Assembly: GCF_900142365.1 (NCBI RefSeq)
Contig: NZ_FRAP01000018.1
Coordinates: forward strand, 1-64,000
Reading direction: 5' to 3'
Source of the DNA: Pseudonocardia thermophila
Lineage (GTDB): Bacteria > Actinomycetota > Actinomycetes > Mycobacteriales > Pseudonocardiaceae
DNA length: 64,000 nt
The notes beneath the pieces were generated by a model. That model was not told the origin of the DNA, made no database searches, and worked only from the letters and a program-made list of their open reading frames with translations. Positions 18,570 to 31,120 of the stretch are shown piece by piece (the first letter of the stretch is position 1; each line of letters starts with the position of its first letter). The position numbers were made by a program, and so were the translations under genes.

Positions 18570-18595
18570 GGAGTCTCCGCGCGGGCGCAGACCTG

Positions 18596-18658
18596 CGTCG
18601 AGAACGACGTTGTCGTGATCGAATCGCGTTGTTGATCACCTCAACGTCGTTCTCGACG
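18596..18658. repeat. Long dispersed palindrome, copy 1
   Basis: Arms of 25 nt (18596-18620 and 18634-18658) are inverted copies with two mismatches around a 13-base loop. The arm begins CGTCGAGAACGACGTTG. The same element recurs at 29552-29616 and 30509-30567. It lies between the MerR gene and a decayed gene whose remaining frame ends inside the right arm. Confidence 0.85.
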
Positions 18659-19260
18659 GGTCCTCAGCCGGCGCGCCGCCGACCGGCCCGGCACCGCCTC
18701 AGCCGATCGCGCGTCGATCCAGCCGACCGTCATCCGCTCGCTGCGCTGGTTCTCGAGCCAGACCTCCAGCTCGGCCCGCGCACCTCCGTCGATCGGTTCG
18801 AGCACCCGCCGTGCGTCGTGAGGACGTCGCCGGCCTGGACGGGCACGAGGGAGCGCAGGTCGAGGTGCCCGCTGCGCTCCCAGGACGTGCCGAACAGCTC
18901 GCGCGCCATCCGGCCGATCCAGTTGGCCCCATGAGCCCCTGCGCCAGCGGCCGCTCGTGCCCGGCCGGCGGGCCATCTCGATGTCGGTGTGGATGGAGCG
19001 TCAGAAGGCGTGCACGTTGGAGCACAGCGAGATCTGTCTGGCGGACCTCGAATGCGCCGGCCGACGACCGGACCTCCAGCCGGGGGTCCGGAATACGCGC
19101 GACCGACCGTCGGCCCGGAGCGGACTCCCCCGCGCACCGTGCGGAACGCCGTCCTGACGCCGCCGCCTGTGCCCATCGGGGTGCCCGGCGGCGGCGCGGC
19201 AATCTCGTGATCATGGCGCAGCGGGCCGGGGCGCACCTCGTCGAGGTCGACGCCGCCCAC
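18641..19260 (-). pseudogene. Decayed MaoC/hot-dog acyl dehydratase-like gene
   Basis: Fragments in two minus-strand frames join into a recognisable MaoC-type (R-hydratase, hot-dog fold) C-terminal half. One frame reads RQISLCSNVHAF then a TGA at 19001-19003, then RSIHTDIEMARR. Another continues ANWIGRMARELFGTSW and RSLVPVQAGDVLTTHG, and a third has ELEVWLENQRSERMTVGW. At least one nonsense codon (probably from a tryptophan) and two frameshifts are needed to connect them. The N-terminal part is not recognisable. The last frame stops inside palindrome copy 1. I read it as a dead gene, not an overlapping intact one. Confidence 0.65.
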
Positions 19261-29179: not shown

Positions 29180-29536
29180 ATGGTGTGGGAAGCGGTCGCG
29201 GACCTCGACCAGCTGGAGGAGGGCGACATGATGGTCGTCCGGATGAACGGCGAGCCGATCTGCGTCGTCCGGCTCTACGAGGACGAGGCGGTCGCCGTGC
29301 ACAACACCTGCACCCACCAGCAGCAGCCGCTCAACGAGGGATACCTGCAGGAGGACGACACGCTGATCTGCCCGGCCCACAACTCCTGCTTCGACCTGCG
29401 TACGGGCGAGCCGAAGGGGGTCCCCGCGGTCGCCCCGATCCCCGTCTACGCGTGCAAGATCGAGGACGACGCGATCTGGGTGGACGTCGACCAGCAGCTC
29501 AACGACGCGGAGATCCCGCACAAGCCGTACCACTGA
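29180..29536 (+). CDS. Rieske-type [2Fe-2S] ferredoxin
   Basis: A 118-residue soluble Rieske protein with ligands C44/H46 (CTHQ) and C64/H67 (CPAH), the NirD/BphF-type ferredoxin size. It probably transfers electrons to an oxygenase or nitrite reductase-like partner, none of which is encoded beside it. It is in one unit with the upstream DUF2231-Rieske gene. Its end is followed within 15 bp by palindrome copy 2. Confidence 0.88.
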   Translation: MVWEAVADLDQLEEGDMMVVRMNGEPICVVRLYEDEAVAVHNTCTHQQQPLNEGYLQEDDTLICPAHNSCFDLRTGEPKGVPAVAPIPVYACKIEDDAIWVDVDQQLNDAEIPHKPYH

Positions 29537-29551: not shown

Positions 29552-29616
29552 GCGTCGAGAACGACGTTGTGGTGATCACATAGGACTGTTGATCACCACA
29601 GCGTCGTTCTCGACGC
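29552..29616. repeat. Long dispersed palindrome, copy 2
   Basis: Arms of 27 nt (29552-29578 and 29590-29616) match with one mismatch that would still pair as G-U in RNA; the loop is 11 bases. It lies between convergent genes and contains the stop codon of the DUF559 gene (29576). It is the same element as copies 1 and 3. Confidence 0.9.
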
Positions 29617-30463
29617 GGGTTCGTTCCTGCAACCTCCGCTCGATCACCGCCGCCGTCGCACGTGGACGGCGGTAGTAGTCATCACGGGTGAAGCGCAGCG
29701 TGAGCCACCCGAGATCACCGACCTGCAGGTCACGCGCGCGGTCCCGACGAGACCGCTCGTCGTCGAAGTGATCGGCCCCGTCGTACTCGATCCCCAGCCG
29801 AGCGTGCGGATAGGCGAAGTCGAACCGGGCGACGCACATCCCGTGCTCGTCGACCACCGGGTGCTGCAGCACCGGCTCCGGCAACCCCGCGAAGTGCAGC
29901 AGGAGCCGGAAACGGGTCTCCATCGCCGACTCGGCCAACGGGTTCGCCAGCGGCACCGCCTTCGCCAGATGCCGACAGCCCCGCGCCCCGGGCGGCCCGC
30001 CCAGCAGCGCCCGCGGTTCGAACCCGCCGATCCGGCACAGCCCGTCGATCGCCACCACAGCCTCGGTCAGCCGAAGCCTGCGCCCCAGATCCCACGCCGT
30101 GCGGAACGGCGTCGTCACCCGACAGCCCTGCACGAGCTCGATCTCGGCCGGAGCGAGCGCGGCCTGCCGCACGATCGGCCCCCGCCGCTTGGCGACCGTT
30201 CCCCGCGAAGCGATCAGCTCGGCGGGCGCCGACTCAGGCGCGCAGTCCGCACCGTGCAGCCGGGCCGCGGAGTACCCGCACAAGGCTCCGTCCTCGGGCA
30301 GCAGCAGATGCGCAGCCCGCGAGCGCAGGGTCAGGTCCGGCACGGCCGAGGCGTCGACGTACACGTCTCGGAAGACCTGCGTGAAGCGCGCGGAGCGCAG
30401 CTGCGCCCGCGTCAGCGCACCCGCGGCGATGGCGGCGGACCCGAGGAACGGTTCTGCGGTCAC
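29576..30463 (-). CDS. DUF559 (PD-(D/E)XK-type) nuclease-like protein
   Basis: A 295-residue protein. The N-terminal third resembles the AbiEi/HTH-like module common in this family (GALTRAQLRSARFTQVFRDVYVD). The C-terminal part is the DUF559 endonuclease-like domain, with E in AMETRFR and the acidic core FDFAYPHARLGIEYDG. GTG start at 30463. The last residues (VENDAVVIN) are encoded by palindrome copy 2, and copy 3 lies just upstream of its 5' end, so the gene is bracketed by the repeat. Biological role unknown; a link to toxin-antitoxin or mobile DNA is speculative. Confidence 0.8.
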   Translation of the reverse strand: MTAEPFLGSAAIAAGALTRAQLRSARFTQVFRDVYVDASAVPDLTLRSRAAHLLLPEDGALCGYSAARLHGADCAPESAPAELIASRGTVAKRRGPIVRQAALAPAEIELVQGCRVTTPFRTAWDLGRRLRLTEAVVAIDGLCRIGGFEPRALLGGPPGARGCRHLAKAVPLANPLAESAMETRFRLLLHFAGLPEPVLQHPVVDEHGMCVARFDFAYPHARLGIEYDGADHFDDERSRRDRARDLQVGDLGWLTLRFTRDDYYRRPRATAAVIERRLQERTRVENDAVVINSPM

Positions 30464-30508
30464 GGGCTACAGGATCGGAGACGGCCGGGGTTCCCCGCGG
30501 GGGTTTCC

Positions 30509-30567
30509 TCGAGAACGAAGTTGTGGTGATCAAGATGGCTTGTTGATCACCACAGCTTCGTTCTCGA
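30509..30567. repeat. Long dispersed palindrome, copy 3
   Basis: Arms of 25 nt (30509-30533 and 30543-30567) match except for one G-U compatible position. Compared with copy 2, the left arm has GAAG for GACG and the right arm has the complementary CTTC for CGTC, so a base pair was exchanged while pairing was kept. It contains the stop codon of the TetR gene (30530). Confidence 0.9.
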
Positions 30568-31120
30568 CGCGGCCCCCATCACCGAACAACCGCCAGGTCG
30601 CCGCCGCGGCGTCGGCCGGGTCCTCGTCGCACGACGCGCAGTGCGCGATGACGCCGACGAGGGCCCCCGCGAGGAAGGCCGCGTGCACGTCGAGCGGCAC
30701 GTCCGAGGCGGGCCGCGCGCCGGCCCGGAACCGCTCCTGCACGGCCTCGGTCAGCGCCGCACGGAGCCGGGCGGCGAACCGGGCGCTGCCCTGCGGCCCG
30801 AGCATCCGCGCGTAGAGCGTGGCGTGCTCGCGGACGTGCTCGAACAGCGTCACCAGCGGTGGCGGCGCCGGCTCCGCGGGTGCGTCGAGCGGGCACAGCT
30901 GCGCGGCCTGCGCGACGGCGGCGACTGCCTCCTCCATCGCGTCTGCGAACAGTGCGTCCAGGTCCGGGTAGTGCAGGTAGACGGTCGCCCGGTTCACACC
31001 CGCCCGAGCCGCGACGGCGGAGAGCGTGAGCGTGGCCGGATCGCGCTCGCCGGCCAGCTCCAGCGCTGCGGCGCGCAGGCTCGCCCGGGTGCGCCGGGCG
31101 CGGGGATCATCCGGTGCCAT
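30530..31120 (-). CDS. TetR-family transcriptional regulator
   Basis: A 196-residue TetR regulator. The N-terminal helix-turn-helix contains LSAVAARAGVNRATVYLHYPDLDALFADA (about 31-60), followed by a ligand-binding helical domain. It is divergent from the FrnE-like gene with a doubled CGACATCTGTCG site between them. A -10 box (TAGACT, 31128-31133) lies 7 bases from the ATG, so it may be leaderless. Its final residues (VENEAVVIN) come from palindrome copy 3. Confidence 0.88.
   Translation of the reverse strand: MAPDDPRARRTRASLRAAALELAGERDPATLTLSAVAARAGVNRATVYLHYPDLDALFADAMEEAVAAVAQAAQLCPLDAPAEPAPPPLVTLFEHVREHATLYARMLGPQGSARFAARLRAALTEAVQERFRAGARPASDVPLDVHAAFLAGALVGVIAHCASCDEDPADAAAATWRLFGDGGRVENEAVVINKPS

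Follow-up and report, generated by a model that had tools for sequence, protein, structure and literature searches.

Architecture of the locus

The DNA analysed here is a stretch of 64,000 nucleotides (nt) from Pseudonocardia thermophila (contig NZ_FRAP01000018.1, positions 1 to 64,000), hereafter the window, and its subject is a gene for a DUF559 nuclease-like protein that lies between two long palindromes, with a third copy of the same palindrome elsewhere in the window. The close bracketing of the gene by copies 2 and 3 is as an earlier note on this DNA had described it. The features concerned are:

18595..18659, no strand: palindrome copy 1; 65 nt; solitary; 65 nt past the stop of a MerR/TipAS regulator
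29180..29536, plus strand: Rieske [2Fe-2S] protein; convergent neighbour of the DUF559 gene
29552..29616, no strand: palindrome copy 2; 65 nt; 3′ of the DUF559 gene, whose stop codon it contains
29576..30463, minus strand: DUF559 gene; 295 codons, the last 12–13 and the stop inside copy 2
30506..30570, no strand: palindrome copy 3; 65 nt; upstream of the DUF559 start, overlapping the 3′ end of the TetR reading frame
30530..31120, minus strand: TetR regulator; last ~12 residues (VENEAVVINKPS) encoded by copy 3

The three palindromes stand where the earlier note had placed them, and its figure of 25–27 nt for the arms agrees with the 25 nt of copy 1 and the 27 nt of copy 2; copy 3 comprises a 25-nt core and a 35-nt extension (86% complementary), and the spacing between arms in the three is 9–13 nt. 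A 23-nt arm pattern (≤3 mismatches) matches the window six times, versus none in 100 dinucleotide shuffles. The paired change from GACG/CGTC in copy 2 to GAAG/CTTC in copy 3 is real. The internal mismatch that these two copies share, which had been called G-U compatible, is so on the plus strand (T·G) but not on the minus strand, where it reads C·A; the description is therefore limited to one strand, and the genes on either side of copy 3, DUF559 and TetR, are both encoded on the minus strand. Both strands of all three copies fold into stable hairpins (z −6.4 to −10.8), and the T run that follows the hairpin of an intrinsic terminator is absent after the stems of all three. Copy 2 begins 15 nt past the Rieske stop.

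The DUF559 protein consists of an AbiEi-like half (residues 1–174) and a DUF559/Vsr-like nuclease half (residues 178–283). The predicted fold of the first half is that of AbiEi (comparison with PDB 6Y8Q; Rv2827c, 1ZEL), while the model of the second finds its best structural match, among the structural families compared, in the homing endonuclease I-Bth0305I (PDB 3R3P). The acidic residues and the histidine of the Vsr-like catalytic domain are conserved, as expected of an EDxHD nuclease. AbiEi-type proteins bind inverted repeats of 23 bp, with a spacing of 13 bp in one case, and the palindromes here have this geometry. The bracketed protein matches DUF559 rather than the Y1 transposase profile of REP-associated tyrosine transposases (RAYTs; REP, repetitive extragenic palindromic), and that profile (PF01797, E≤0.001) has no match in the P. 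thermophila genome, 98.8% of which was covered.

Matching palindromes bracket DUF559 genes across genomes

In the P. thermophila genome (G000; 6.1 Mb, 47 contigs), the PF04480 profile identifies two DUF559 genes, and a protein search returns three matches, two of which were inspected. Because 53 palindromes stand against two DUF559 genes, and no gene family recurs beside the palindromes in the loci of P. thermophila and Pseudonocardia lacus, the link to DUF559 was first judged accidental, an explanation dropped once P. lacus and further orthologues proved bracketed. The reciprocal best match of the window protein in P. lacus (62% identical) lies between palindromes too, and both this orthologue and a bracketed one from a third species sit in other gene neighbourhoods. 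Another genome, G045, has a bracketed DUF559 gene (62%) with a divergent palindrome family of 138 two-strand matches, or ~70 copies. In G003 all three DUF559 genes tested have matching flanks, and one pair is detected by the model built on the window's palindromes.

Homologues of the protein (E≤1e-10) occur in 61 of 62 Pseudonocardia genomes, at 1–17 apiece, and from among the matches listed 70 distinct loci form the genus test set, 30 of them delivered by the search itself and 40 picked from an incomplete list of match positions. Six of these were known beforehand to carry palindromes (the window, P. lacus, G045 C34, G003 C102, G014 C1:1326423 and G047 C67). DUF559 starts were extrapolated from the alignment, and the starts and ends of other genes come from a simple codon-usage gene caller. 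With neighbour genes of the same loci and 23 other loci as controls, dyads scoring ≥12 are found upstream of 33/70 DUF559 genes versus 2/96 control gene starts, and downstream of 37/70 versus 10/100 control gene ends. Where both sides carry a dyad (24 loci), likeness within a locus is 0.69 versus 0.18 between loci (0/10000 permutations), with values ≤0.6 in seven of them.

A test independent of dyads, in which 250 nt upstream were compared by BLAST with 310 nt downstream of each gene, gives matching flank repeats at E≤1e-6 for 43/70 DUF559 loci versus 0/150 control genes from G014, and at E≤0.01 for 61/70 versus 24/150. Among genes of the palindrome-rich P. thermophila and P. lacus loci the repeats occur at 3/250 (2/249 excluding the window DUF559 gene itself), and mismatched pairs of flanks yield 1/295. 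The repeats of the 43 loci have a median length of 66 nt, 30 being direct and 13 inverted, and the upstream repeat ends a median of 66 nt from the estimated DUF559 start.

The arrangement extends beyond the genus. A DUF559 homologue is present in 314/397 genomes of the order sample, and 15 of 28 loci outside the genus are bracketed at E≤1e-6 (7 direct, 8 inverted), 29 having been tested and one (L362) dropped since it repeats the genus locus L329. Only one of 72,556 plasmid records holds a homologue, that of Arthrobacter sp. StoSoilB13, from another order, and there the gene is bracketed by 57-nt palindromes that are 79% alike; the same query found none in 50,697 phage records.

Most paralogues carry a palindrome sequence of their own, and the more alike two proteins are, the more alike their palindromes tend to be (Mantel r 0.313, 0/5000, 58 loci), although in a few cases distant proteins adjoin alike palindromes. 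Four species of one other genus have similar DUF559-flanking palindromes of the CAGTAACGC...GCGTTACTGGCG type (L367, L371, L383, L390), so that some palindromes are kept across species.

The surroundings of these genes differ. None of four window neighbours, the Rieske gene included, recurs around six other DUF559 genes, as judged from eight stretches (three of them one P. lacus gene) with flanks of mostly ~1.5 kb. In the window the DUF559 gene adjoins the Rieske and TetR genes and no nucleotidyltransferase toxin gene. At the Rieske locus of G045, a different strong palindrome with GAACGGCACTTTC arms (L259:2-62) lies by the Rieske gene.

Anatomy and covariation of the palindrome family

The 65-nt unit reads (C/G)CGTCGAGAACGA, a variable stretch, GTGATC and a 13-nt centre, followed by the reverse complement. 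The genome-wide arm search that the earlier note had proposed returns 53 copies in P. thermophila (55-nt pattern, ≤3 mismatches; reversed control 0), and the same pattern gives 122 in P. lacus. Three more Pseudonocardia species have 5, 3 and 2 copies, so that it matches 5/62 genus genomes and, in the order sample, P. thermophila alone among 397. A looser covariance model (R1) matches 12/62 genus genomes, some probably by chance; its single-locus matches L207, L209 and L210 resemble coding sequence on reading. Rfam offers six matches with E values of up to 5, all well short of the gathering score, and a comparison of the palindrome DNA with plasmids gives no match.

Anatomy was read from 86 of the 88 P. 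lacus copies that 80 loci contain (8 more loci left out) and 51 P. thermophila copies (54 found with ≤5 mismatches in the stretches examined). The outer 13 and inner 6 positions of the P. lacus arms each deviate in at most one of 86 copies. Covariation between the arms exceeds shuffles at columns 8, 13 and 14 in P. thermophila and at columns 8 and 9 in P. lacus, while the halves of the 13-nt centre show no association or a negative one, being less alike than expected. Among 48 copies picked for diversity, 14/26 pairs show two-sided change, with 92 cells altered on both sides versus 45 in shuffles. Past the element ends, flank complementarity beyond shuffles is confined to single columns.

Since copies descend from one another, this covariation indicates kept symmetry and not by itself selection of an RNA fold. 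The proposal that the folded form is selected is thus not established, the covariation being partial and possibly a reflection of shared descent. The symmetry is explained just as well if the arms are equal half-sites for a DNA-binding protein that acts as a dimer.

Variants of the unit also occur. Some palindromes keep similar outer arms but differ in the core, which reads TTGGACCGGTCCAA in one P. lacus example, as though one core had replaced another; they lie at L068:1898 and L122:2164 in P. lacus and at L158:1223, L163:5094, L164:5054 and L145:4242 in P. thermophila. At L077:1180-1200 of P. lacus the outer arms are fused and the centre is gone, as after a deletion between arms.

Copies lie mostly behind stop codons and are dispersed in some genomes

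The 51 P. thermophila copies comprise 21 between convergent, 21 between tandem and 8 between divergent genes, and one inside a gene; the 86 of P. lacus comprise 37, 39, 6 and 1, respectively, with three at contig edges. For comparison, the intergenic gaps of ≥60 nt that these loci contain are 48 convergent, 138 tandem and 95 divergent for P. thermophila, and 48, 151 and 96 for P. lacus. Among copies with a gene end no more than 400 nt away (42 and 75, respectively), 29/42 and 65/75 copies start 0–30 nt past the stop, and in a further 6/42 and 8/75 the stop codon falls inside the palindrome. These internal stops occupy fixed places (−24 or −41; 29576-29616 and 30530-30570 in the window), so that the proteins gain palindrome-encoded tails such as VENEAVVIN.

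Nine orthologous gene ends could be compared between P. thermophila and P. lacus, two of which face one and the same P. thermophila copy: a palindrome is present in P. thermophila only at four, in P. lacus only at four and in both at one. Four relatives of the TetR regulator that lack the palindrome stop short of its 12-residue tail. These occupied and empty gene ends, together with the TetR tail, argue that the copies were inserted, mostly in a lineage-specific manner, and are tolerated 3′ of stops. REPs are likewise tolerated behind stop codons, according to a section on their genome distribution (PMC3733652).

In a 400-kb sample (4%) of the G014 genome, a sample that includes no DUF559 gene, at least four of that genome's DUF559 palindromes have solitary relatives, which lie at ~8 places and show roughly 74–90% identity. 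The same sample (L342-L361) holds other palindrome families in 2–3 copies, such as CCCGTGAGTGAGAAGTGTGGCTATAGCCACACTTCTCACTCACGGG, that are not tied to DUF559 there. Palindrome abundance agrees with the presence of the cognate enzyme in P. thermophila, P. lacus and G045, whereas G018 departs in one direction (many palindromes, no close DUF559 gene) and G058 and G400 in the other. Bracketing is therefore general and dispersal occasional, the latter being seen in P. thermophila, P. lacus, G045 and G014, with G058, G400 and G018 as the cases against.

A probable palindrome–gene–palindrome unit

These results are best read as a unit that resembles either REP/RAYT or a homing element but whose enzyme is not a RAYT. 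Specifically, the DUF559 gene and the palindromes on its two sides probably constitute one unit that would be bound, cut or copied by its own AbiEi-nuclease protein. This reading draws on the bracketing, the family enrichment, the likeness within loci, the palindrome–protein co-variation and the dispersed copies, as well as on the species-specific occupied and empty gene ends, the catalytic residues, which are conserved, and the fold predicted for the protein; from these we infer binding, cleavage, copying or movement, and autoregulation by the DUF559 protein. The idea in the earlier note of a mobile or maintained unit with the logic of REPs and RAYTs thus has good comparative support from Pseudonocardia, other genera of the order and the Arthrobacter plasmid, movement being the presumed part. 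Its proviso that DUF559 genes should be enriched beside palindromes gets a divided answer: most copies follow the stops of unrelated genes, yet the enrichment at DUF559 genes across genomes is strong.

Mechanistically, the AbiEi-like N-terminal half would bind both half-sites of the palindrome, each ~26 bp long, together, and the C-terminal EDxHD/Vsr-like nuclease would cut or nick inside or beside it. Break repair or recombination could then copy the palindrome to new sites, yielding solitary copies, or alternatively re-insert the whole palindrome–gene–palindrome unit. Copies would persist best just 3′ of stop codons because they do little harm there and possibly serve as transcript-end hairpins. 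The upstream copy probably doubles as the operator of the DUF559 gene itself.

Several observations weigh against such a unit. The second DUF559 gene of P. thermophila (L166) lacks palindromes, so that one of the two inspected is bracketed, and in the genus 27/70 loci have no flank repeat at E≤1e-6, nine not even at 0.01; the order-level 15/28 comes without control genes from those genomes. G018 has at least 84 two-strand model matches (~42 or more palindromes; the strict pattern finds 3), but the closest DUF559 protein of this genome is 40% identical and has another palindrome, and G007 and G051 have some palindromes but only distant DUF559 genes. A BLAST search with the G058 palindrome returned itself and a weak 33-nt match in G025, in a search that scored 15 candidates and missed the gene's own upstream copy, and a 400-kb sample of G400 holds no solitary copies. 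Neither target duplication nor recent insertion of a whole unit is demonstrated, and no empty site of the whole unit was found, as no match listed from another genome spans the Rieske and TetR genes. Targets of homing-type enzymes are also given as reaching up to 30 bp (PMC3943268).

Three other explanations were weighed. The palindromes could be autoregulatory sites of the AbiEi-like domain, with the downstream and dispersed copies as by-products or decoys that do not move. Repression of the own promoter by way of inverted repeats of 23 bp is described for AbiEi and Rv2827c (PMC7319586), and the median of 66 nt from the upstream repeat to the start corresponds to a promoter position. However, 43/70 loci have a matching copy close to the stop codon, where no operator is expected, and the 53 and 122 copies mostly lie past the stop codons of unrelated genes, which makes this explanation unlikely. 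Immobile relicts, by which we mean ancient palindrome-ended composites now inherited vertically, as is said of RAYT genes, with solitary copies left by gene loss, seem quite unlikely. Such an origin would suit a family so rare outside chromosomes (1/72,556 plasmid and 0/50,697 phage records with this query), and the direct flanks in 30/43 genus cases make deletion between repeats possible. In contrast, the near-identical arms of 86 P. lacus copies and the species-specific gene ends argue for recent spread, and 53–122 losses behind stops would require equally many prior insertions. A role as bidirectional terminators or stabilisers of mRNA ends, with some unrelated process behind their spread and DUF559 genes simply tending to carry such ends, is improbable: the stable hairpins that the window copies form on either strand, the many copies 0–30 nt past stops (29/42 and 65/75) and the arm covariation suit it, but the window copies lack a T run, matching copies are also present ahead of the DUF559 start, paired repeats occur at 0/150 control genes (E≤1e-6) and the uniformity of the outer arms far exceeds the needs of a terminator.

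More tentatively than the self-flanked unit itself, we suggest that these loci may form a separate class in Actinomycetota, in which AbiEi-EDxHD nucleases home into and copy their own ~60-bp dyad, with a private palindrome per paralogue, as an independent REP/RAYT-like invention based on double-strand-break chemistry.

Comparison with known systems

The modelled fold of the nuclease half resembles that of the EDxHD homing endonuclease I-Bth0305I, so that by fold the DUF559 gene is like a free-standing gene for such an enzyme. Unlike I-Bth0305I, the DUF559 protein lies outside any intron or intein and has an AbiEi-like half fused to it, and its homing is only putative. Unlike the AbiEi antitoxins of type IV toxin–antitoxin systems, it carries a fused nuclease, and no nucleotidyltransferase partner gene lies next to it in the window. 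Caulobacter VsrA, a DUF559 protein, shares the DUF559/Vsr-like domain, but a role in mismatch repair is proposed for it, and the available part of that account mentions no palindromes (PMC12907096).

Among the papers that searches for DUF559 in one open-access collection listed, no title or abstract describes a link with palindromes, although two papers contain both words. The DUF559 enzyme is not known to have been tied to such palindromes before, and the whole looks like an unrecognised mobile or self-maintaining element of soil actinobacteria. Here both position and co-variation connect a widespread, little-studied family with palindromes of its own, which gives DUF559/AbiEi-like proteins a testable substrate and offers a rule by which new palindrome families can be found from the gene outward. 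Nucleases with long dyad targets may result.

REPs and RAYTs are the closest parallel. For them, two palindromes flanking the gene, co-evolution and abundance are described (PMC2817692), and the present loci share with them (PMC2817692, PMC3116915, PMC3733652) the bracketing by two palindromes, the co-variation of palindrome and protein and the species-specific sequences. As with REPs in these sources, copies are extragenic and lie past stops, between convergent or tandem genes. The enzyme differs: whereas RAYTs are Y1 tyrosine, IS200/IS605-like transposases, it joins a Vsr/EDxHD-like nuclease to an AbiEi-like domain, and up to 17 homologues occur per genome, mostly with their own palindrome. 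The dyad, at ~55–70 nt, lacks the unpaired GTAG/CGTC tag of REPs; CGTC is here paired with GACG, and the arms measure 25–27 nt versus the 8–9-bp stem of CGTC REPs. Unlike the inverted flanks of RAYT genes, those found here are direct in 30/43 genus and 7/15 order cases. The DUF559–palindrome unit thus works like RAYT/REP without being a member of that system, having no Y1 transposase, no tag and another dyad length.
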